Shown: one piece after another, positions 3,678 through 31,969 of the stretch | Position numbering within the stretch: the first letter of the stretch is position 1 | Layout: every line of letters begins with the position of its first letter | The notes under the pieces: generated by a model | Told to the model about the DNA's origin: nothing | What the model saw: the letters and a program-made list of their open reading frames with translations, nothing else | The model's database searches: none | Assembly (NCBI GenBank): GCA_900169975.1 | Contig: LT827125.1 | Span: 186,001-250,000, forward strand | Length of the DNA: 64,000 bases | Source of the DNA: Pseudoflavonifractor sp. Marseille-P3106 | Lineage (GTDB): Bacteria > Bacillota > Clostridia > Oscillospirales > Oscillospiraceae | Direction of reading: 5' to 3' | Translations under genes and position numbers: made by a program

Positions 3678-4400
3678 ATGGAAGAATTAGAGAAGCTGCA
3701 AAAATGGCTGGACGAAAGCCGGAGCGCCGTATTTTTTGGCGGGGCCGGGGTGTCAACAGAGAGTGGGATCCCGGATTTCCGCAGCGTGGACGGACTGTAC
3801 AATCAGTCGTACCGATATCCGCCCGAGACCATCATCAGCCGCAGTTTTTTTGCGCGCGATCCGGAGGAGTTCTACCGGTTTTACAGGGAGAAGATGCTCT
3901 GGCTGGATGCGGAGCCCAACGCGGCGCACCGCAAGCTGGCCGAACTGGAGCGGGCGGGCAGACTGGCGGCGGTGGTGACGCAAAATATTGACGGGCTGCA
4001 TCAAAAGGCGGGCAGCAGGGTCGTGCTGGAGCTCCATGGGAGCGTTCATCGAAATTATTGTATGAAGTGTCATAAGAGTTTTGACGCCGCATATGTGAAG
4101 AATGCGCCCGGGATCCCCCGCTGTGATGTCTGCGGGGGAGTGGTGAAGCCGGATGTGGTTTTATATGAGGAGTCGCTGGATGACAAAACACTCCGCGAGG
4201 CGGTGCGCCGCATCGAGGCGGCGGATCTGCTCGTGGTGGGCGGGACCTCTCTGGCGGTCTATCCGGCCGCGGGATTGATCCAGTATTACAGAGGAAACCG
4301 CCTGGTTTTGATCAATCGGACGCCCACGCCTTACGACAGCCAGGCAGATCTGATTTTGACGGAAAACATTGGCGCGCTGATGGGGAAGCTGCGCGCCTAA
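3678..4400 (+). CDS. cobB: NAD-dependent protein deacylase, Sir2 family
   Basis: 240 residues, normal for a bacterial sirtuin. It removes acyl groups from lysines using NAD, releasing nicotinamide and O-acyl-ADP-ribose. Visible motifs: GAGVSTESGIPDFR (22-35) and TQNIDGLH (101-108) of the NAD pocket, catalytic His120 in LELHGS, four zinc cysteines (128, 131, 149, 152), KPDVVLYEE and GGTSLAVYP. The ATG at 3678 sits 7 bases after a GGGGGG ribosome site; an upstream GTG extension has no homology. It has its own promoter and a hairpin downstream, so is probably monocistronic. Confidence 0.95.
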   Translation: MEELEKLQKWLDESRSAVFFGGAGVSTESGIPDFRSVDGLYNQSYRYPPETIISRSFFARDPEEFYRFYREKMLWLDAEPNAAHRKLAELERAGRLAAVVTQNIDGLHQKAGSRVVLELHGSVHRNYCMKCHKSFDAAYVKNAPGIPRCDVCGGVVKPDVVLYEESLDDKTLREAVRRIEAADLLVVGGTSLAVYPAAGLIQYYRGNRLVLINRTPTPYDSQADLILTENIGALMGKLRA

Positions 4401-4442
4401 AAAAGTGGCTCAAACCTGCAACGAATTTCTTCTGCTGACAGA

Positions 4443-4483
4443 CTTTGGGGGTGAACGGAAAAGGATGCCGTTCACCCCTAAAG
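4443..4483. repeat. Inverted repeat after cobB
   Basis: Sixteen-base arms (4443-4458 and 4468-4483, one G-T pair) around a 9-base loop. It lies 42 bases after the cobB stop and could end transcription, but there is no T run on either strand. Confidence 0.6.
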
Positions 4484-4485
4484 TC

Positions 4486-5064
4486 ATGATATGGAGGAAT
4501 GGAGCATGGACCATAAAAATTGCTGCCGGACTGGCAGGTTTGATGGCCCCGCCCGCAGGGGCCTGCGGCGCCAAGAAGGGCGGCGGGGCTGCTGTCTGTT
4601 TACGGGAAAGAGTTCTCCGCCCTGCCGGCGGAAACGGAAAAGAATGAGGTGATCCGTGCCCGGATTGTCAATGCCTGTGAGACCCCGGAGGACTATCTGG
4701 CGGACACCCGTTATTTTTACAATTACGTTGATTTGGACGGAGGCGGAACCGACAAGGTTCTGCGGTTGTAATGGGCCCATACACCAGCAGGGCCGACGGA
4801 GGCTCCGCGCTGATTGTGAAGCAGGAGGCTGGTGCGCTCACGGTGCTCCAAAAGCTTACCCTGGCCCATATGCCTGTTGTGGTCAGCGACACGGTAAGCA
4901 ATGGATGGAAAGAGATCGTTGTCCCTTATTCCGGAGGGGGTGTGGAGCCTGCTTGTGTTGTGCTCAGAGCGGAAAATGGGATCTGTCCCAGCGTTGCGGA
5001 TGGTGCCGCCATTGACTCGCTGGAAGGTGTCAGCGGAACGGCAGTTCTCTATATACAGGTGTGA
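4486..5064 (+). pseudogene. Decayed gene for an exported calcium-binding-like protein
   Basis: An ATG at 4486 starts a lipoprotein-like signal (IKIAAGLAGLMA ... AGAC). The frame then has to shift near 4590 to give YGKEFSALPAETEKNEVIRARIVNA and YFYNYVDLDGGGTDKVLRL, which stops at TAA near 4770. A further shift gives MGPYTSRADGGSALIVKQE through to YIQV at 5064. The three pieces join into one sensible protein of about 190 residues with an FG-GAP/EF-hand-like loop (DLDGGGTD) followed by GPYTS...GGSALIV. I do not recognise a named family. At least two frameshifts make it a pseudogene unless the sequence is wrong. Confidence 0.65.
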
Positions 5065-5136
5065 CGGCTCCGGATGCCCCGGTGCTGACTCTGGCTGGCT
5101 GAGCGTGGGGAGTGCTCTTCCGGACGGAAAGTGGAA

Positions 5137-5169
5137 GGGAGGCGGAGGTCGATCAGACCTCCGCCTCCC
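5137..5169. terminator. Terminator of the thioesterase/Smr pair
   Basis: GGGAGGCGGAGGTC (5137-5150) pairs perfectly with 5156-5169 around GATCA. It lies 8 bases beyond the minus-strand thioesterase stop; T runs are short on both sides. Confidence 0.65.
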
Positions 5170-5177
5170 TTTCCTGT

Positions 5178-5579
5178 TCAGCGGTTTTCAACGCAAAAGA
5201 AGGTATAGCTGCCGCTGGCCAGCAGCCGCCCCTGAGAGTCGGTGATGTCGACTTCTGCCACACATGTGGTGCGGCCGCGGTGGCGGATGGTGCCTGTGGC
5301 CTGAATGGTGTCGCCCAGCTGTCCGCTGCGGAGGAAGTTGAAGCTGCTGGACAGGGTGACGTACCTGCGGCCGTCACTGCGGGCCGCAAGGCCGGCGGCG
5401 CAGTCTCCCATGGTGTAAAGAACCCCTCCATGGGCGATGCCGTAAGGATTCAGGCTCTCCTTGACAACAGTCAGTTCCATGACGGTCCGGCCGTGTTCCG
5501 CCTCCTTCAGGTGGATGTGGTTGTAATTCATAAATTCGTTTTTTTCACAAAGAGTGAGGATCCCATCGGGTGCAAGCAT
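5178..5579 (-). CDS. PaaI-type hotdog thioesterase
   Basis: 133 residues, one hotdog domain. The signature HGG followed by D (His50-Gly-Gly and Asp59 in GIAHGGVLYTMGD) is the active-site helix of PaaI/YdiI-type acyl-CoA thioesterases, and VTLSSSFNFLR and GDTIQATG form the conserved beta strands. It would hydrolyse an aryl- or acyl-CoA thioester in the cytosol; the substrate cannot be told. AAGGAG lies 8 bases before the ATG. The Smr gene ends 3 bases upstream, so the two share a transcript ending at the hairpin at 5137-5169. Confidence 0.9.
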   Translation of the reverse strand: MLAPDGILTLCEKNEFMNYNHIHLKEAEHGRTVMELTVVKESLNPYGIAHGGVLYTMGDCAAGLAARSDGRRYVTLSSSFNFLRSGQLGDTIQATGTIRHRGRTTCVAEVDITDSQGRLLASGSYTFFCVENR

Positions 5580-5582
5580 AAT

Positions 5583-5945
5583 TCAAACTCCTTTTTCTCT
5601 TTTGAGTACAATAAAAGTTACGCCGTTGTTGCTGCGCTCCAGGTCCCGATCCCGCCGAAGTTCTCCGCACAGGCGAAAGGCGGCCAAGGTGGAGGCATCA
5701 AAAATGGAGAAACATTCTCCGGGAATAAATCCGGAAATGCTCCCCTGATTTTTAAGGCGGGTCAAATAATTTCTGGCCTCGATCCGGATGCGGCCGCCCG
5801 CGCCGGTGGAGCCGTAACCGTGGATGATTTTCACAACGGCGTCCCCGATCATTCGGCTGTGATTGATCTCAAAGGTCAAACGGCGGATTGCAGCATCCAC
5901 AGTTGGATGACCAAGCTCCAGATTGACTTCCCGCAGGTTTCCCAT
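5583..5945 (-). CDS. Small Smr-domain protein
   Basis: 120 residues from the ATG at 5945 (GGGGTGA upstream). The frame is open further upstream, but that part is antisense to a tRNA and has no homology. VNLELGHPTVDAAIRRL followed by IIHGYGSTGAGGRIR (40-54) is the Smr signature also found at the C-terminus of MutS2; such domains nick or bind branched nucleic acid or stalled-ribosome mRNA. The C-terminal 60 residues are less conserved. It is cotranscribed with the thioesterase, with no evident functional link. Confidence 0.85.
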   Translation of the reverse strand: MGNLREVNLELGHPTVDAAIRRLTFEINHSRMIGDAVVKIIHGYGSTGAGGRIRIEARNYLTRLKNQGSISGFIPGECFSIFDASTLAAFRLCGELRRDRDLERSNNGVTFIVLKREKGV

Positions 5946-23280: not shown

Positions 23281-23304
23281 ATGTAACTTGACAAAAATTA
23301 TCCA
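23281..23304 (+). promoter_or_regulatory. First copy of a 24-base element, over the rrf2 promoter
   Basis: ATGTAACTTGACAAAAATTA, then TCCA. It matches 20 of 24 bases of 23771-23794 and covers the -35 box of the rrf2 promoter. A candidate Rrf2 operator. Confidence 0.5.
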
Positions 23305-23316
23305 CATTGGTAAGAT
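23288..23316 (+). promoter_or_regulatory. Promoter of rrf2
   Basis: TTGACA (23288-23293), 17-base spacer, TAAGAT (23311-23316), 32 bases before the start codon. Confidence 0.8.
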
Positions 23317-23347
23317 AAGGCCAGAACAGGAAGGGAGAGTGAACGGC

Positions 23348-23761
23348 TTGCTCATCACCAGGGAGACGGACTACGCGCTGCGGATCCTGCGCGCTCTGTC
23401 CGACGGCGAGCTTTTGACCGCCAAGGCACTCACGCAGAAGGAGGCGGTCCCCCATCAGTTCGCTTATAAGATCCTGAAGAAGCTGGAGGGTGCCGGACTC
23501 ATCCGAATCACCAGGGGGACGGGGGGAGGCTGCCGGCTGACCGCCGATCTTCGGCAGGTCTCTCTGTACGACCTGATGGGAGCGGTGGGGGAGGATACCC
23601 GGCTGATCTCCTGCATGATGCCTGATTACCAGTGTACCCGCCCGCAGGAGAATCCCCGGTGTGCTGTGCACTACCGGCTTTGCGACATTCAGAAGACCGT
23701 GGACCGGGAACTGCAGTCCCACACCGTTCACTGGCTGTTATTCGGCCCGAAGCAGGACTGA
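23348..23761 (+). CDS. Rrf2-family transcriptional regulator with cysteine cluster
   Basis: 137 residues from a TTG at 23348, which gives LITRETDYALRILRAL, the standard Rrf2 start; a GTG nine bases upstream is possible but too close to the ribosome site. A winged helix (LTQKEAVPHQFAYKILKKLEGAG) is followed by cysteines in SCMMPDYQC and RCAVHYRLC that could hold an iron-sulfur cluster. Rrf2 proteins such as IscR and NsrR sense Fe-S status, NO or redox. It lies 59 bases before the ACAD fusion gene, and the same 24-base element precedes both, so it probably controls itself and the fusion-FprA pair. Confidence 0.9.
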   Translation: MLITRETDYALRILRALSDGELLTAKALTQKEAVPHQFAYKILKKLEGAGLIRITRGTGGGCRLTADLRQVSLYDLMGAVGEDTRLISCMMPDYQCTRPQENPRCAVHYRLCDIQKTVDRELQSHTVHWLLFGPKQD

Positions 23762-23770
23762 TTTTTTACA

Positions 23771-23794
23771 ATGAAACTGGACAAAAAATATCAA
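23771..23794 (+). promoter_or_regulatory. Second copy of the 24-base element, before the ACAD fusion
   Basis: ATGAAACTGGACAAAAAATA, then TCAA; 20 of 24 bases match 23281-23304. A weak promoter TTTACA (23765-23770), 18 bases, TATCAA (23789-23794) overlaps it, so binding would affect initiation. Confidence 0.5.
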
Positions 23795-23820
23795 GTATAA
23801 AGTGAGAAGGAGGCACCGGT

Positions 23821-25731
23821 ATGTTGTTCCAAACTACACAGGCCCACGAGGAGCTGCGGAAGAAGGTCCGGGAGTTTGCGGAGGCGGAGGTGAAGCCCCT
23901 GGCCTTCACCCTGGATCAGAACAATGAATTCCCGGACGAGGCGGTCAAAAAGATGGGGGAGCTGGGCCTGATGGGCCTGCCTTATCCCAAGGAGTACGGC
24001 GGAGCCGGACTGGATGTGCTCAGTTACGCCATTGCCGTGGAGGAGCTCTCCCGGGTGGACGGCGGCACCGGCGTCATCCTCTCCGCCCACACCAGCCTGG
24101 GCACCTGGCCCATCGCCGCCTATGGTACCGAGGCCCAGAAGAAGAAATATCTGGTGCCCCTCTGCAAGGGGGAGAAGATCGGCGCCTTCGGCCTTACCGA
24201 GCCTAACGCCGGAAGCGACGCCGGCGGTACCGAGACCACCGCCGTCCTCAAGGGCGACCACTATATCCTCAACGGGGGCAAGATCTTCATCACCAACGCC
24301 CCCAAAGCCGACACCTATGTGGTCTTTGCGGTCACCACCCCCGATATCGGCACCCGGGGCATCTCCGCCTTTATCGTGGAGAAGGGCTGGAAGGGCTTCG
24401 AATTCGGCGACCACTACGACAAGATGGGTATCCGCTCCTCCTCCACCGCCGAGCTGATCTTCAACGACGTGAAGGTGCCCGCGGAAAACCTGCTGGGCAA
24501 GGAGGGCGACGGCTTCAAGATCGCCATGGCCACGCTGGACGGCGGCCGCATCGGCATTGCCTCCCAGGCGCTGGGCATCGCCCAGGGGGCTTATGAGGCC
24601 GCCGTGGATTACGCCAAGGAGCGGGTGCAGTTCGGCAAGCCCATCGGCTTCCAGCAGGCCATCAGCTTCAAACTGGCCGACATGGCCACCAAGCTCCGCT
24701 GCGCCCGCATGCTGGTCTACTCCGCCGCCGAGATGAAGGAACACCACGTCCCTTATGGCATGGAATCCGCCATGGCCAAGATGTACTCCTCCGATATCGC
24801 CCTGGAGGTCACCAACGACGCCCTCCAGATCTTCGGCGGCACCGGCTTCCTCAAGGGGATGGACGTGGAGCGGATGTACCGGGACGCCAAGATCACCACC
24901 ATTTACGAGGGCACCAACGAGATCCAGCGGGTGGTCATCGCCTCTCACATCATGGGCAAGCCGCCCAAGCGGGAGGGAGGCTCCTCCAGCCAGCCCAAGA
25001 AGCCCGCCCCCATCACCGGTGTGCGGAAAAAGCACATCTTCAAGGAAGGGGATGCCGCCGGGAAGGTGGCGGAGCTGGTGGAGCACCTGAAGAAGGACGG
25101 CTATGACTTCACCGTGGGGATCCCCATGGACACTCCCATCCTTCAGGCCGAGCGGGTGGTCTCCGCGGGCAAGGGCATCGGCGACAAGAAGAACATGAAG
25201 CTCGTCGAGGATCTGGCCAAGGCCGCAGGCGCTGCCGTAGGATCCTCCCGCCCGGTGGCCGAGACGCTGAAGTATGTGCCGCTCAACCGCTATGTGGGCA
25301 TGTCCGGCCAGAAGTTCACCGGCAATCTGTACATCGCCTGCGGCATCTCGGGCGCTATCCAGCACCTCAAGGGCATCAAGGACGCCTCTACCATCGTGGC
25401 CATCAACAAGAACGGAAACGCCCCCATCTTCAAAAACTGTGACTACGGCATCGTGGGCGACGTCAACGAGATCCTGCCCCTGCTCACCGCCGCCCTGGAC
25501 ACCGGGGCCAAGCAGCCCGCACCGCCCATGGTGAAAATGAAGCGGCCTGTCGCCCCCAAGCCTGAGCCTTTGGGCAAGCACTACGTCTGCGGCGGCTGCG
25601 GCTATGAGTACATCCCCGAGCTGGGCGACGAGGACGCCGAGATCGCCCCGGGCACCCTGTTTGAAAAGCTCCCCGAGGACTGGGTCTGTCCCGAGTGCGC
25701 CGAGTCCAAAGACATGTTTATCGAGGCCTGA
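23821..25731 (+). CDS. Acyl-CoA dehydrogenase - EtfA C-domain - rubredoxin fusion
   Basis: 636 residues, three parts. Acyl-CoA dehydrogenase 1-380: [14 protein letters not shown] (flavin/substrate loop), catalytic Glu363 in [11 protein letters not shown]. EtfA FAD-binding C-domain about 405-560: SSRPVAE, GMSGQKF and [18 protein letters not shown], but the EtfA N-domain and all of EtfB are absent. Rubredoxin 586-636 with CGGCGYEY (C590, C593) and CPEC (C623, C626). Electrons could flow acyl-CoA to FAD to FAD to rubredoxin inside one chain. The flavodiiron gene starts 27 bases later and is the natural rubredoxin partner. GGAGG precedes the ATG. Confidence 0.93.
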
Positions 25732-25758
25732 GCGCCCCACGAAAAAGGAGGAATCACG

Positions 25759-26970
25759 ATGTATTGTGTACGAAATGTGACCGAAGACCTTTACTGGGTG
25801 GGCGCCAACGACCATCGGCTCCACCTCTTTGAAAACATCCACCCCATCCCCCGGGGGGTGAGCTATAACGCCTATCTGCTGCTGGACGAGAAGAGCGTTC
25901 TCTTTGACACGGTGGACTGGTCGGCCTGCCGCCAGCTTCTGGAAAACATCGAGCACCTGCTGGCGGGCAAGCCCCTGGATTTTCTGGTCATCAACCACAT
26001 GGAGCCTGACCACGGCGCCTCCATTGAGGAAATTCTGATCCGCTACCCTGACGTGAAGGTCATCTCCACCGAAAAGTCCTTTATGCTCATGCGCCAGTTC
26101 GGCTTCCATGTGGACGGCCACGAGTGCATCGAGGTGAAGGAGGGGGATACCCAGACCTTCGGCAGGCACACCGTCACTTTTGTGGCGGCCCCCATGGTCC
26201 ACTGGCCCGAAGCCATGGTCACTTTCGATGTGACCAACGGCGTGCTCTTCTCCGCCGACGCCTTCGGCTCCTTCGGCGCCCTGGACGGCAAGCTCTTCGC
26301 CGACGAGGTGAACTTCGACCGGGACTGGATCGACGATGCCCGGCGCTACCTGACCAACATCGTGGGCAAGTACGGCCCCCACGTCCAGCTCCTGCTGAAA
26401 AAGGCGGCGGGCATCCTGGATCAGATCAGGTTCATCTGTCCCCTCCACGGGCCGGTATGGCGCAAGGACCTGATGTACTTCATCGACAAGTACGACAAGT
26501 GGAGCCGCTATGAGCCTGAGGAGAAGGGCGTGATGATCGCCTACGCCTCCATGTACGGCAACACCGAGGCAGCCGCCCAGGCCCTGGCCGCCAAGCTCTG
26601 TGAGCGGGGCATGACCAACGTGTGGGTCTACGACGTCTCCAACACCCACGTCTCCCAGCTCATCTCCGAGTCCTTCCGCCTGAGCCACATCGTGCTGGCC
26701 AGCGTCACCTACAATCTGGGCATTTACCCCGTGATGCATGACTATCTCATGCACATGAAGGGCCTGAACCTCCAGAACCGCACCTTCGCTCTGGTGGAGA
26801 ACGGCTCCTGGGCCTGCAAGTCCGGGGACCTGATGCAGAAGTTCATCCATGAGGAAATGAAGAACATGACGGTCCTCAACGAGCGGTTGAGCCTGGCCTC
26901 CGCCCTCAACGACGGCAAGGCCGCCGAGCTGGACGCCCTGGCCGACGCCATCCTGGAATCCATGAAATGA
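25759..26970 (+). CDS. Flavodiiron protein, FprA type
   Basis: 403 residues: metallo-beta-lactamase-like diiron domain (1-250) and flavodoxin domain (257-403, YASMYGNTE for FMN). Diiron ligands His80, Glu82, Asp84, His85 (NHMEPDH), His148, Asp167 and His230 are all visible. These enzymes reduce O2 to water or NO to N2O with electrons from rubredoxin in the anaerobe cytosol. It lies 27 bases after the ACAD-EtfA-rubredoxin fusion, behind AAAGGAGG, in one transcript that ends at 27002-27045. Confidence 0.95.
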   Translation: MYCVRNVTEDLYWVGANDHRLHLFENIHPIPRGVSYNAYLLLDEKSVLFDTVDWSACRQLLENIEHLLAGKPLDFLVINHMEPDHGASIEEILIRYPDVKVISTEKSFMLMRQFGFHVDGHECIEVKEGDTQTFGRHTVTFVAAPMVHWPEAMVTFDVTNGVLFSADAFGSFGALDGKLFADEVNFDRDWIDDARRYLTNIVGKYGPHVQLLLKKAAGILDQIRFICPLHGPVWRKDLMYFIDKYDKWSRYEPEEKGVMIAYASMYGNTEAAAQALAAKLCERGMTNVWVYDVSNTHVSQLISESFRLSHIVLASVTYNLGIYPVMHDYLMHMKGLNLQNRTFALVENGSWACKSGDLMQKFIHEEMKNMTVLNERLSLASALNDGKAAELDALADAILESMK

Positions 26971-27067: not shown

Positions 27068-28057
27068 TCAGTCCTTGCAGGCCTCTTCTGCGTAAGTATT
27101 GTCGACCAGCTGGGCAAAATCCACACGATGGTCCAGCTCGCCCGCCGTCTCCATGACGGTCTCCAGGCGCTCCAGGGCCTCCTGCTTCATCACCGGCGTC
27201 TCGTTCCAGGCGTCGATGTCCTGATAGCGCTGAGCCACCAACGTCAGCACATCCAGCTTGGTGTCGGGGAACTGGTCGGCGACTGCCTCGGCGATCTCCT
27301 TGGCGGTGTGCTCCTGCACCCATTTCTGCCCCTTGGCCACGGCGTTGGTGAAGCTCTGGATGACCTTGGGATTGTTCTCGATGTAGCTCTGAGAGGCGAA
27401 AAACGCGGTGTAGGGGATTTCTCCGCTCTCCTGCCCGATGGAGGTGAGGACATAGCCCTTGCCCTCCAGTTCCACCTCGGTGGCAGTGGGTTCAAACAGT
27501 GCCACGTAGTCTCCGTTCCCTCCGGTGAAGGCCCCCGCCATCATGTTGAACTGGACCGAGGTGTCTACCACGGCGTCCTGGCTGGGGACGACGCCGTTCT
27601 GACGCATGACATATTCCAGCGTCATCTCCGGCACGCCGCCCTTGCGGCCGCCGATCACGGTGCTGCCCTTCAGGTTTTCCCAGAGGAAGGGCCCATTCGT
27701 CCGTCCCACCAGGAAGGAGCCGTCCCGCTTGGTCAGCTGGGCAAAGACCACCGGATGATCCTCCCGGCCTTCGTTGAGCACATAGATGCAGGCCTCCGGT
27801 CCGGCCAGCCCCACATCGGCCTGCCCTGCTAGGACGGCGGTCATCACCTTGTCGGCCCCGCCGCCGTTGGTGAGCTCCACGTCCAGCCCCTCCTCTTCGA
27901 AGAAGCCCAGCTTGAGCGCGGCGTACATCGGCGCGTAAAAGACCGAGTGGGTGACCTCGTTGAGCCTCACTTTTGTACTGGTTTCCCGTCTGCCGCAGGC
28001 GGTAAACAGGCTTATCGTCAGAACCAGACTCAGAACCAATGCGATGCGTTTTTTCAT
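27068..28057 (-). CDS. ABC transporter substrate-binding lipoprotein (NMT1/SsuA-like)
   Basis: 329 residues with a lipoprotein signal (LFTACGRR, Cys21). EVTHSVFYAPMYAALKLGFFEEEGLDVEL is the family N-terminus; part of it, FYAPMYAALKLGFFEEEGL, identifies the NMT1/THI5-like and SsuA group. GGGADKVMTAVLAGQADVGL binds the ligand. It would capture an aromatic sulfonate, nitrate-like or thiamine-precursor ligand outside the membrane; no riboswitch or metabolic neighbour narrows it. It is last in the importer operon, overlapping the permease by 4 bases. Confidence 0.93.
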   Translation of the reverse strand: MKKRIALVLSLVLTISLFTACGRRETSTKVRLNEVTHSVFYAPMYAALKLGFFEEEGLDVELTNGGGADKVMTAVLAGQADVGLAGPEACIYVLNEGREDHPVVFAQLTKRDGSFLVGRTNGPFLWENLKGSTVIGGRKGGVPEMTLEYVMRQNGVVPSQDAVVDTSVQFNMMAGAFTGGNGDYVALFEPTATEVELEGKGYVLTSIGQESGEIPYTAFFASQSYIENNPKVIQSFTNAVAKGQKWVQEHTAKEIAEAVADQFPDTKLDVLTLVAQRYQDIDAWNETPVMKQEALERLETVMETAGELDHRVDFAQLVDNTYAEEACKD

Positions 28058-28869
28058 ACCGTCACTCCCATATACTTTTTCATGGCTTTTTCAAGCCATA
28101 GGATACACTGGTACATCAGCGCCGCCGCCGCGGCCAGGATCAGCACGGTGGTCATGACAAGGTCCATCTTGAACACCTGCGAGCCGTATACAATGAGGTA
28201 GCCCAGACCGGCCCTGGACACCAGAAACTCTCCCATGATGACCCCCACCCACGACAGCCCCACATTCACCTTGAGGGCGTTGATCATTGTGGTGAAGTTT
28301 GCGGGCAGCACCAGCTTGCAGAGGATCTGCCGGCGGCTGGCGCCCAGCGTGCGCATCAGGCGGATCTTTTCCGGGTCTGTGGCGAGGAAACCGTTGTGCA
28401 TATCCAGGATCGTAACGATCAGCGAGATCGCCAGTGTCATGGCAATAATGGAGGCCGGCCCGGCGCCGATCCAGACGATGAAGACCGGTCCCAGCGCCGT
28501 CTTGGGCAGGGAGTTCAGCACTACGAGATAGGGATCCAGCACCCGGGAGAGAAATTCGCTCCACCAGAGCAGGATGGCGATGACGGTGCCGACAAACGTG
28601 CCCAGCAAAAAGCCGGTCACAGTCTCCATTACAGACGTTCCGACGTGCAAAAACAGATCTCCCGAGCGCCAAAGGTTCAAAAAGGTGGACAGCATCCGGG
28701 AAGGGCTGCTCACAATAAAGGCGTCGATGACGCCCAGCCGGGCGGCCAGCTCCCAGCTGGCAAACAGCAAAAACAAGATCCCCAGGCGCAGTCCGATGAC
28801 CGCGCCCTTCACCCGTTTTTGATGCCGTAAGTAAGCCTGCCGCTGCAGCGAGGGGGTTAAATCAGGCAT
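28054..28869 (-). CDS. ABC transporter permease (SsuC/ThiX-like)
   Basis: 271 residues from the ATG at 28869, overlapping the ATPase stop by 8 bases. About six membrane segments; the EAA loop reads EKIRLMRTLGASRRQILCKLVLP and contacts the ATPase. VSSPSRMLSTFLNLWRSGDLF and the DPYLVVLNSLPKTALGP segment are typical of sulfonate/nitrate/taurine permeases. It forms the membrane channel of the importer. Confidence 0.93.
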   Translation of the reverse strand: MPDLTPSLQRQAYLRHQKRVKGAVIGLRLGILFLLFASWELAARLGVIDAFIVSSPSRMLSTFLNLWRSGDLFLHVGTSVMETVTGFLLGTFVGTVIAILLWWSEFLSRVLDPYLVVLNSLPKTALGPVFIVWIGAGPASIIAMTLAISLIVTILDMHNGFLATDPEKIRLMRTLGASRRQILCKLVLPANFTTMINALKVNVGLSWVGVIMGEFLVSRAGLGYLIVYGSQVFKMDLVMTTVLILAAAAALMYQCILWLEKAMKKYMGVTV

Positions 28870-29620
28870 GGGCGTCCAACTCCTTCCAGATCTCATTGAA
28901 GTGTGTTCGGAAGGCGGGATGGTCCCGGCGCTGGAGGGGAGGGACATCTTTTAAGTCGTCCAGCGTATGGATGTTCTTGACCCGGGACGGGCGGTGGGTC
29001 AGCACGACCACCCGGTCCGACAGGCTGATGCTTTCGGAGATGTCGTGGGTCACCAGCAGAGCGGTCTTGTGTTCCTGGCGGATGATTGTGTAGATATCGG
29101 CGGAGACGGACAGGCGGGTCTGGTAGTCCAGCGCGGAGAAGGGCTCATCCAGCAGCAGGATCTTGGGGTCGGTGGCCAGGGTGCGAATGAGGGCGCACCG
29201 CTGCCGCATGCCCCCGGAGAGCTGGGCGGGCGTTTTCTGAATGAATTCCGCCAGTCCGTACCGCTCCAGCAGTTCATGTGCATGGGCCTGCCGCTCCCCG
29301 GTGTTCTGGTGCTGTATTTCCAGCCCCAGGGTCACGTTTGCCCAGATCGTGCGCCAGGGAAACAGCTGATCTTTCTGCGGCATATAGCCGATCTTGGCCG
29401 ACGGAGCGGTGACGGCCTCGTGGTCAATGGATATGGTTCCGGCGGACGGTGGCTCCAGTCCGGCGATCGTCGAGAGCAGGGTCGATTTTCCGCAGCCCGA
29501 CGGCCCGACCAGACTGACAAACTCGCCTTCTTCGATGCCAAAACTGATATCGCTGATGGCGTCCACCTCGCCGTCCGGCGCTTGGTATGTCAGTTTGACG
29601 TGTTGCAGGTCTACAATCAT
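28862..29620 (-). CDS. ABC transporter ATP-binding protein (SsuB-like)
   Basis: 252 residues from the ATG at 29620. Walker A GPSGCGKST, Q loop MPQKDQLFPW, signature LSGGMRQR, Walker B ILLLDEPFSALD, H-loop THD. MPQKD.LFPWRT is characteristic of SsuB/TauB/ThiZ-type importers. It powers the adjacent permease. It is the first gene of the operon; upstream is the Crp/Fnr gene with its own terminator. Confidence 0.95.
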   Translation of the reverse strand: MIVDLQHVKLTYQAPDGEVDAISDISFGIEEGEFVSLVGPSGCGKSTLLSTIAGLEPPSAGTISIDHEAVTAPSAKIGYMPQKDQLFPWRTIWANVTLGLEIQHQNTGERQAHAHELLERYGLAEFIQKTPAQLSGGMRQRCALIRTLATDPKILLLDEPFSALDYQTRLSVSADIYTIIRQEHKTALLVTHDISESISLSDRVVVLTHRPSRVKNIHTLDDLKDVPPLQRRDHPAFRTHFNEIWKELDAHA

Positions 29621-29727
29621 GTCACCGGCGGCTCCTTCCAACAAATGAGCTGGGGCCAAAAGGCCCTCTGAATCATCATATGGAGCCGGGAGAAGAATGT
29701 GACGACACCCATGCGCCGCAGGTGGCG

Positions 29728-29772
29728 GAAAACAGCAGGCCGGCAGACACCGAAGTGTCTGCCGGCCTGCTG
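29728..29772 (-). terminator. Terminator of the Crp/Fnr gene
   Basis: Perfect 18-base arms (29733-29750, 29755-29772) around CGAA, followed by TTTT on the minus strand. Confidence 0.9.
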
Positions 29773-29804
29773 AGAAGTATTTCCAGGCGCTGGGGCCCAG
29801 AGGG

Positions 29805-30503
29805 TCAGTCGGTGCAGTCATACCCTGCGCAGGGTGTGATCCGCAGGAGGTATCGCCCGTTTTCCGACAGGAGGATCCCCTCTTTTTTCAGCTTGTTCCA
29901 CTCTGTGGAGAGGCCGCTGCGGTCGATGAAGAGATAGTCGGCCAACTCCTGCTGATTGAAGGGAATGGAAAAGGGCCGGCCGCCGGAGAATCGCATCTGT
30001 TCCGAGAGGTAGGACAGCAGCTTTCGGCGGGTGGTGCGCCCGGAGAGGTGAATGAGCTTCTGGTTGATGCTCACGTATTTTTCGGCAAGGAGATGAATCA
30101 AATTTTCATTGAGCTGTTGGTGCTGCTTGCAGGTGGCGGCACAGGAGTGGAGGATGAGATCGATGTCGATGAGCAGCACGGTGCTCTCCACCTGTGCCAC
30201 CACGCTGACCGGCAGAGACCGGTTGATGGTGCAGGCGAAAGCCTCGCAGAAGAGCTGCCCGGGATTCATGGAGCCGATGATGCTGCGCCCGCCCAGAATG
30301 TCGTCGTATACTGTGTTGACCCGCCCTGCGAGCACGATCCCCAGGTGACGGGCGGTCTCCCCCTTGGCAAAGATCACACTCCCTTTGGGGCAGACGCGCT
30401 TTTTGGCTTTGAGGCACTCCAGCAGGGGGAGAAGCTCCTCCGCCGGGACCCCTTTGAAAAGCGGATTGTTTTGATAGAGGGAGAGATAGTGTTCCATAAA
30501 CAT
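29805..30503 (-). CDS. Crp/Fnr-family transcriptional regulator
   Basis: 232 residues. Cyclic-nucleotide-like beta barrel (15-130, GETARHLGIVLAGRVN), dimer helix, and a winged helix with NQQELADYLFIDRSGLSTEWNKLKKEG (about 185-210). Cysteines at CLK, RVCPKG, LFCEAFAC and SCAATC are scattered and not in the Fnr Fe-S pattern, so the signal is unclear. The gene is divergent from an RclA-like/TrxA/TrxB operon; the 16-base palindrome at 30514-30529 between them is its probable site. The start may be the ATG at 30503 or 30497. Confidence 0.9.
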   Translation of the reverse strand: MFMEHYLSLYQNNPLFKGVPAEELLPLLECLKAKKRVCPKGSVIFAKGETARHLGIVLAGRVNTVYDDILGGRSIIGSMNPGQLFCEAFACTINRSLPVSVVAQVESTVLLIDIDLILHSCAATCKQHQQLNENLIHLLAEKYVSINQKLIHLSGRTTRRKLLSYLSEQMRFSGGRPFSIPFNQQELADYLFIDRSGLSTEWNKLKKEGILLSENGRYLLRITPCAGYDCTD

Positions 30504-30600: not shown

Positions 30601-31969
30601 ATGAAAAATTTTTAAAATGTCGTGATCGGGGTTGGAAAGGGGGGAAAGACTTTGGCGGGCGCACTGGCCCAGACGGGACAGTCCGTGGCTTTGATCGAGC
30701 GGGACGGAGGAATGTACGGCGGAACCTGCATCAACGCGGCCCGCATCCCCACCAAGGCCCTGGAGTACAGCGCCCGGCTTTCCAATGCCGCGGGGGGCAG
30801 TTTTGAAGAAAAGGCGGCCGTTATCGTGCGGCGGTGGAGGGAAAGGACCACCTGACGGCCATGCCCGCCAGAAAAACTATGACAAGGCGGCCTTCTCAGG
30901 AGTTGCGGTCCTTACCGGAACGGCTGCGTTTCTGGGGGAGCACCGGATCCGGGTGACTTACGGGGACGGCTCTTCCGAGGAACTCACTGCCGACCGCTTT
31001 TTCCTCAATACCGGCTCCAGGCCCTTCCTGCCCCCCATTGCGGGCTTGAAAGAGAGCGCGTTCGCCTACACCAGCGAGGCCCTGATGGCCCGGCGGGTGC
31101 TGCCCCGCCGTCTGGCCATTATCGGCGGCGGTTACATCGGGCTGGAGTTTTCCTCCCACTTTGCCAACTTCGGTTCACAGGTCACGGTGATCCAGGACTG
31201 GGAGCAGTTCATTCCCCGAGAGGATGCCGAGGTGGCCCGGTCCGTACTGGAGAGCCTGACGGCCCGGGGCGTACAGATGCGGATGGGCGCCGCCATCCAG
31301 TCTGTGCGGGATGAGGGTGACTGTGCAGTGCTGACGCTCCGGACGACCGCCGGTGCCGAGGAGCTGGAGGCCGATGCCATTTTGGTGGCCGCCGGACGGC
31401 GGCCCAACGGGAAGGAGCTCAACCTTCCGGCGGCGGGGGTGGAGCTGACGGATCGGGGAGCGGTCAAGGTGGATGAGCACCTGCGGACCAGCGCCCCGCA
31501 CATCTGGGCCATGGGAGATGTGGCGGGCGGGCTGCAGTTTACGTGTATTTCTCCGGACGACTTCCGCATCATCAAGCCTCAGCTTCTGGGAGACGGCCGG
31601 CGCACTACCCAGAATCGGGGCGAGGCGCCCTATACCGTGTTCCTGGATCCTCCGCTCTCCCGGGTGGGCCTGTCCGAACAGGAGGCTTTGGAGCGGAGGT
31701 ATGAGGTCAAGGTGGCTCGCCTTCCGGCGGGGGCCATCCCCAAAGCCCACGTGCTCCGTCGGCCCACCGGTCTTTTGAAGGCCGTTGTGGATGCCAGGAC
31801 CGGGCTGATCCTGGGGGCGCACTTCTTCTGCGCGGAATCCCAGGGGATGATCAACCTCATCAAGCTCTGCATGGATGCCAAGCTGCCCTATGCCACCCTG
31901 CGGGACGGTATTTTCAACCATCCCACCATGAGTGAGGCGCTCAATGATCTGTTCGGCGCCCTCAAATAA
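30601..31969 (+). pseudogene. Broken RclA-like pyridine nucleotide-disulfide oxidoreductase
   Basis: The ATG at 30601 follows GGAGGGGAAAAAG, but codon 5 is TAA. The same frame then reads VVIGVGKGGKTLAGALA (FAD loop) and GGTCINAARIPTK, where the second redox cysteine (normally in CxxxxC) is Arg. Around 30830-30880 two frameshifts are needed (VEGKDHLTAM, then RQKNYDKAAF) before a long open part: IIGGGYIGLEFSSHFANFG (NAD loop), AMGDVAGGLQFTCISPDDFRI and the dimer domain. The ISPDDFRI stretch resembles RclA, the flavoenzyme that defends against hypochlorous/hypothiocyanous stress. One stop, two frameshifts and a lost catalytic cysteine make it non-functional as a disulfide reductase. Confidence 0.85.

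Follow-up and report, generated by a model that had tools for sequence, protein, structure and literature searches.

A probable butyryl-CoA oxygen oxidoreductase locus with a likely Rrf2 operator switch, and relatives whose fused rubredoxin lacks its iron ligands

Introduction

A 64,000-nucleotide stretch of the genome of Pseudoflavonifractor sp. Marseille-P3106 (contig LT827125.1, positions 186,001 to 250,000; hereafter the window) encodes a polypeptide in which a butyryl-CoA dehydrogenase-like domain, the flavin adenine dinucleotide (FAD)-binding domain of EtfA and a rubredoxin are joined on one chain. Its gene lies between those of an Rrf2-family regulator and of a flavodiiron protein (FDP), all three on the + strand in the order rrf2, fusion, FDP, which raises the question of where the electrons taken from an acyl-CoA by such a fusion would go, and what would switch the system on. 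An earlier note on this DNA had suggested that they run straight through the rubredoxin to the FDP, as a short circuit ending in the reduction of O2 or nitric oxide (NO), and had called the locus Rrf2-controlled.

The core of the answer, acyl-CoA-driven O2 reduction by a fusion of this kind together with an FDP, is already published. In Fusobacterium nucleatum the two proteins, encoded by FN1423-FN1424 (PMC12630350), make up the butyryl-CoA oxygen oxidoreductase (BOOR), which according to PMC12288474 is an alpha4beta4 complex that oxidises butyryl-CoA and reduces O2 to water; the same text credits the original F. nucleatum work to Bystrom and Wolthers (2024; doi 10.1021/acs.biochem.4c00279) and states that BOOR is encoded by many obligate anaerobes of the Firmicutes. 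The Rrf2 neighbour has been described as well, in a 2026 preprint (PMC13404960), which reports an Rrf2 factor, C0FN14, as a neighbour of BOOR in gut Clostridia, Roseburia among them, counts the fusion (there BCR) in 123 and the FDP in 115 of 149 neighbourhoods of the factor, and proposes that its Fe-S cluster controls the BOOR pair. What we add is probably new in two respects, namely a candidate DNA switch for the Rrf2 regulator and a group of relatives in which the fused rubredoxin has been stripped of its iron ligands.

Results

The fusion protein and its flavodiiron partner

The fusion gene (23821..25731, + strand) encodes 636 residues, and Pfam matches far above cut-off divided them into Acyl-CoA_dh N, M and 1 domains at residues 6-377 (23836..24951, +), an ETF_alpha FAD-binding domain (PF00766) at residues 440-520 (25138..25380, +) and a rubredoxin domain (PF00301) at residues 588-633 (25582..25719, +). 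The PF00766 match covered model positions 2-81 of 81, and the NCBIfam EtfA models extended it to about residue 560. It was the only ETF match in the Pfam scan of the fusion, which listed no N-terminal ETF domain, and no ETF domain was matched in the six window neighbours scanned; as neither EtfB nor EtfA domain I is present, the fusion should have no bifurcating flavin. The best solved-structure match to the dehydrogenase part was chain 5ol2_C (E 3.7e-145), which we take to be the Clostridium difficile Bcd of the EtfAB/Bcd complex. Twenty-seven bases separate the stop codon of the fusion from the ATG at 25759 of the next gene (25759..26970, +), which encodes a class A-like FDP of 403 residues with matches to the ODP (beta-lactamase-like diiron) and Flavodoxin_1 domains. 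The arrangement read by the earlier note from the letters, a 636-residue fusion behind an Rrf2 gene and 27 bases ahead of a complete FprA, was thus borne out by the open reading frames and by Pfam.

The residues expected of a working pair, several of which that note had also named, are conserved to a high degree in alignments drawn from 100 loci, of which 91 fusions and 90 FDPs passed length and stop filters. Glu363 (codon 24907-24909), which from its position in the motif YEGTNE we take to be the catalytic base of the dehydrogenase, was invariant in all 91 fusions, as were Arg477, Ser495, Gln514 and Asn529 of the EtfA domain. The rubredoxin cysteines 590, 593, 623 and 626 were kept in 90 of the 91. 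The positions H80, E82, D84, H85, H148, D167 and H230 of the FDP, presumably its diiron ligands by motif, were invariant in 90/90.

The pairing of the two genes was equally consistent. A scan of named genomes gave 585 confirmed fusion matches, of which we took the best 80, and so close relatives, together with the window copy (81 loci); no F. nucleatum copy was among these best 80. An FDP gene lay at most 700 bases downstream on the same strand in 78 of the 81, that is, in 78/78 with room for one, as the three loci without a visible FDP (L025, L027 and L046) had less than 300 bases of contig remaining. The gap exceeded 100 bases in 8 of the 78, and some FDPs at contig ends were partial, L028 showing just 21 residues. 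In a class sample of 291 genomes the fusion (E up to 1e-40) was found in 20, our own genome included, and an FDP stood directly behind it in each. The same was seen in family f36, where the FDP accompanied the fusion in 12/12 further genera sampled and adjoined it in 29/29 matched genomes of genus g102 (in one of these, L149, the FDP match spans residues 1-313 of 413). The survey for fusions without FprA that the earlier note had proposed therefore met no full-length case among the loci inspected, which took in part of the matches from f36, a family with a match in 89 of 130 genomes.

In the genome as a whole, the assembly of which is rated 99% complete, PF00301 (E up to 0.001) matched the fused domain and nothing else, so that the search revealed no free rubredoxin of this family to replace it. 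The partners named in print are present: rnfC was matched above cut-off at two loci, and further acyl-CoA dehydrogenase genes have EtfA matches close by. The genome also encodes a second FDP, away from any fusion, and four Rrf2 genes over cut-off.

The Rrf2 regulator and two operator-like palindromes

The regulator gene (23339..23761, +) more likely starts at the GTG at 23339, behind a purine-rich stretch, than at the TTG at 23288, which would fall inside the predicted promoter. Its product matched PF02082 with 84.7 bits (cut-off 30) and carries an NsrR-like ligand set, the Asp of an N-terminal TDYA motif plus three Cys; the NCBIfam NsrR equivalog NF008240 gave it 31.8 bits, below the cut-off of 182. 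When the proteins from 36 loci were aligned, five being dropped by filters, the three Cys were present in 31/31 and the Asp in 30/31, the remaining one being masked. Such a gene lay within 2 kb of the fusion in 33 of the 68 close-relative loci with at least 700 bases upstream (window included) and near it in 2 of the 13 with less than 700 bases.

A 25-bp palindrome, with the symmetrised consensus AAACTgGAtAAAaTTTaTCcAGTTT, stands 5' of both the fusion gene and rrf2. The copy before the fusion, O2 (AAACTGGACAAAAAATATCAAGTAT, 23774..23798, without strand), scored 32.7 with a model of pooled sites and was the top site of the window; the copy before rrf2, O1 (TAACTTGACAAAAATTATCCACATT, 23284..23308, likewise without strand), scored 30.1, and the next best place in the window 4.8. 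O1 overlaps the -35 element of a sigma-70-like promoter of rrf2 (23288..23316, +; TTGACA, 17 bases, TAAGAT, with TG before the latter; 10/12 matches), in a region with 2 promoter-like sites where shuffles had 0.8 on average, and the covering of the -35 of a good promoter fits repression.

To judge the motif beyond the window we cross-trained it, scoring a model from one promoter side on the other side and on shuffles. The models were seeded with half-sites read from both promoters, so that the test is not fully independent, and of the two thresholds used the 99% shuffle value was fixed beforehand and the stricter, highest-shuffle value was picked after the result. With the fusion-side model, an rrf2-side site was found in 32/35 loci, each scoring higher than any of 700 shuffles (maximum 14.0). 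With the rrf2-side model, a fusion-side site exceeded the highest of 720 shuffles (14.4) in 23 of the 36 Rrf2 loci, and in one (L071, 14.9) of the 55 loci without Rrf2 that had at least 130 bases upstream (of 64 in all); at the 99% threshold of 7.1, for which only Rrf2 loci were shuffled, the counts were 25/36 versus 10/55. The pooled model, whose 51 training sites come from the very loci scanned with it, found 54 sites above 16 in the 36 Rrf2 loci (382,835 bases), every one at the fusion or rrf2 promoter, and a single site above 16 in the 64 Rrf2-less loci (621,810 bases). That single site, in L116 around 7892, is strong (25.3) and alone, with no Rrf2 gene nearby. Control of the pair by Rrf2, as the earlier note had it, is supported by the two putative operators. 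A literature search on Rrf2, flavodiiron and operator found no published report of this operator.

In a search for other targets the left-half pattern, with at most two mismatches, had 28 matches in the genome versus 30 for a reversed control. Taken together the matches are at chance level, and we propose no regulon beyond BOOR; with 0 or 1 mismatch there were four matches, two being the BOOR sites and two lying inside open frames (L100, L102).

As a side observation, several loci that lack the Rrf2 gene (L014, L015, L016, L039, L066 and L084) have a Fur/PerR-like box (e.g. GATAATGATTCTCATTACT) near the start of the fusion. Boxes with at least 13 of 19 letters occurred in 14/55 Rrf2-less loci versus 3.75 in mononucleotide shuffles, and they were also above shuffles in Rrf2 loci (3/36 versus 0.45). 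We regard it as a weak lead that the regulator may have been swapped where Rrf2 is absent.

Rubredoxin domains that lost their iron ligands

The one aligned fusion with none of the four rubredoxin cysteines, L126 (on the complement at 3713-5635), proved to be one of many. It belongs to genus g102 (L126, L128-L156), in which D, S, S and S replace the four Cys in 29/29 matched genomes; 31 genomes were listed for the genus, two of which (G305 and G320) had no match, and 21 further unmatched genomes lay outside that list. Both serine codon families, TCN and AGY, occur among the replacements, and the domain of L126 is still recognised by Pfam at 52 bits (cut-off 23). Pooled over all pairs, Nei-Gojobori ratios of nonsynonymous to synonymous change (dN/dS) were 0.104 for the rubredoxin, 0.098 for the ETF and 0.061 for the dehydrogenase part, and on these ratios the rubredoxin domain of g102 is under purifying selection. 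The Cys-less fusions formed one clade with support of 0.996, of 33 tips with four genomes present twice, and the sister, L168, keeps its Cys. We rejected a sequencing error or a decaying domain on the 29 genomes, the mixed serine codons, the low dN/dS and the single clade.

The FDP ligands are intact in 29/29 g102 genomes. The pairs have thus been kept without the rubredoxin Cys, and loss of the iron ligands is compatible with fusion and FDP staying together. Free rubredoxin is encoded in 18/18 g102 genomes tested and in 5/5 Cys-bearing f36 genomes, and in the 12 other f36 genera sampled the fusions keep all four Cys. Among the papers listed by our literature searches we saw no earlier mention of Cys-less or rubredoxin-free forms of BOOR; the 2024 original may mention them.

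Family f36 also contains dehydrogenase-EtfA fusions of about 560 residues without any rubredoxin: 14 matches were shorter, at about 160 residues, and six of these regions were read. The rubredoxin-free fusion of L161 lies 121 bases before an FDP gene and that of L160 directly precedes a complete BCR-FDP pair; L162 and L163 have a divergent FDP, the fusion of L162 looking incomplete, and no FDP was seen near the fusions of L158 and L159.

Surroundings of the locus

Downstream of the FDP gene, and convergent to the BOOR genes, the region 27068-30503 (- strand) holds genes for an NMT1/THI5-like binding protein, a permease and an ATPase, with a Crp-like regulator. It is followed at 30601-31969 (+) by a gene for an NAD(P)-disulphide oxidoreductase that is seemingly broken by an in-frame stop and a frame change near its start, and its product also lacks what by motif would be the second active-site Cys.

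Discussion

In our view the window locus most likely encodes a BOOR that reduces O2 and is switched by an Rrf2 protein dedicated to it, an assignment that we hold with considerable confidence. The genes, domains, residues, FDP pairing and operator-like sites were observed here, and the activity and the complex are known for the F. nucleatum pair; by analogy we infer that the window pair acts in the same way, along with its substrate, the order of its carriers, the Fe-S cluster and repression. In the scheme that we propose, the FAD of the dehydrogenase domain would oxidise butyryl-CoA to crotonyl-CoA and hand its electrons to the second FAD, that of the EtfA domain, and the rubredoxin of the same chain would relay them to the neighbouring FDP, whose flavin mononucleotide (FMN) and diiron site would reduce O2 to water. 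The crotonyl-CoA could then re-enter the bifurcating Bcd-EtfAB. The Rrf2 protein would probably hold an Fe-S cluster by three Cys and one Asp and, acting at the two 25-bp palindromes, repress both its own gene and bcr-fdp as long as the cluster is not destroyed by O2 (or NO). To call this a short circuit, as the earlier note did, undersells it, as PMC12288474 argues that BOOR saves energy when crotonyl-CoA returns to Bcd-ETF. The direct route through the rubredoxin is probable in the window, with its four Cys and single PF00301 match; as a general rule it fails, g102 having no Cys there.

Several points weigh against the assignment. The fusion showed no Rrf2 gene nearby in 35 of the 68 close relatives with room (hmmsearch within 2 kb), and of the 19 other genomes in the class sample 18 likewise gave none (tblastn at 1e-5), searches that a distant Rrf2 may escape; the sole class-sample neighbour, in L110, is diverged (39%, by tblastn). 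Among the Rrf2 loci themselves 13/36 have no fusion-side site that outscores every shuffle, and the single such site among the 55 Rrf2-less loci counts in the same direction. The operators are sequence patterns, the orthology to the F. nucleatum pair rests on architecture and gene pairing rather than on alignment, and the Cys-less g102 and rubredoxin-free fusions show that the order of carriers does not hold everywhere.

From these last forms we draw a more tentative proposal, which as a whole we consider possible and on balance doubtful: the rubredoxin may not be an obligate wire, in that g102 would use a metal-free rubredoxin as a docking clamp, with electrons going from FAD to FMN or via a free rubredoxin, and BOOR of gut Clostridia, the window's included, would have a dedicated NsrR-like repressor that acts on a palindrome present at two sites. 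The domain could also be mainly a docking module throughout, the EtfA FAD reducing the FMN of the FDP directly (or by way of a free rubredoxin), with an Fe(Cys)4 centre that helps but can be dispensed with. The uniform D, S, S, S of the 29 g102 genomes, with serines from both codon families and a dN/dS close to that of the ETF part, speaks for such a role, as do the intact FDPs adjacent in all 29 and the rubredoxin-free fusion of L161 ahead of its FDP; the retention of all four Cys in 90 of 91 aligned fusions and in the 12 other f36 genera speaks against it. A free rubredoxin is available as a possible stand-in in 18/18 g102 genomes, which also weakens the docking role, yet the 5/5 Cys-bearing f36 genomes encode one too. 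We think a mainly docking role unlikely.

Two further readings concern what the pair does with its electrons, and both fare worse than O2 reduction from butyryl-CoA. As the FDP family reduces O2 or NO (PMC12288474) and the ligand set of the Rrf2 protein is NsrR-like, the pair might act mainly on NO under nitrosative stress. The F. nucleatum complex, however, had no NO reductase activity according to the same paper, and on this published inactivity we rejected NO reduction as the main function, leaving it very little probability. Of the two acceptors offered by the earlier note, then, O2 stands, being shown for the F. nucleatum pair and in keeping with the sequence features of the window, and NO is not supported. 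Acyl-CoA dehydrogenases are reversible, so the fusion might instead run backwards, with rubredoxin electrons reducing an enoyl-CoA, and its best NCBIfam model is indeed an acryloyl-CoA reductase, below cut-off (492.7 of 640 bits). Against such a reductase stand the FDP paired in every locus with room, the absence of a rubredoxin reductase gene from the locus and its immediate neighbours, and the other dehydrogenase-EtfA sets of the genome, which could reduce enoyl-CoA themselves; the reverse role found little support and is most improbable.

BOOR connects protection against oxygen with the butyrate metabolism of gut bacteria that are valued as butyrate makers, and the proposed operator makes its control directly testable. 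The g102 clade in turn offers a ready-made experiment on how electrons leave an EtfA-type flavin, with the rubredoxin as wire or as clamp.

Comparison with known systems

Like the F. nucleatum BOOR (PMC12288474), the window has Bcd, a C-terminal EtfA part and rubredoxin on one chain with the FDP beside it; unlike it, the window pair, whose function is proposed by comparison, sits in an Oscillospiraceae-like genome with an Rrf2 gene and operator-like sites of its own. The loci of C0FN14 share with the window an Rrf2 gene near BCR and FDP, the three Cys plus Asp and a proposed repression governed by an Fe-S cluster, whereas we propose two operator sites and the accessible text of that preprint (PMC13404960) names no operator, binding site, palindrome, motif or promoter. 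With the bifurcating Bcd-EtfAB (5ol2), in which the alpha-FAD on EtfA domain II and the FAD of Bcd are reported to be 8 A apart (PMC5691135), the fusion has in common a dehydrogenase and an EtfA FAD domain, but it is without EtfB or EtfA domain I and has gained a rubredoxin. Finally, the Rrf2 protein resembles NsrR-type regulators in its Asp and three Cys but differs from them in the letters of its site and in its linked target, and it scores below the NCBIfam NsrR cut-off. The 11-1-11 symmetry of the window palindromes nevertheless matches what we take to be the layout of NsrR sites.

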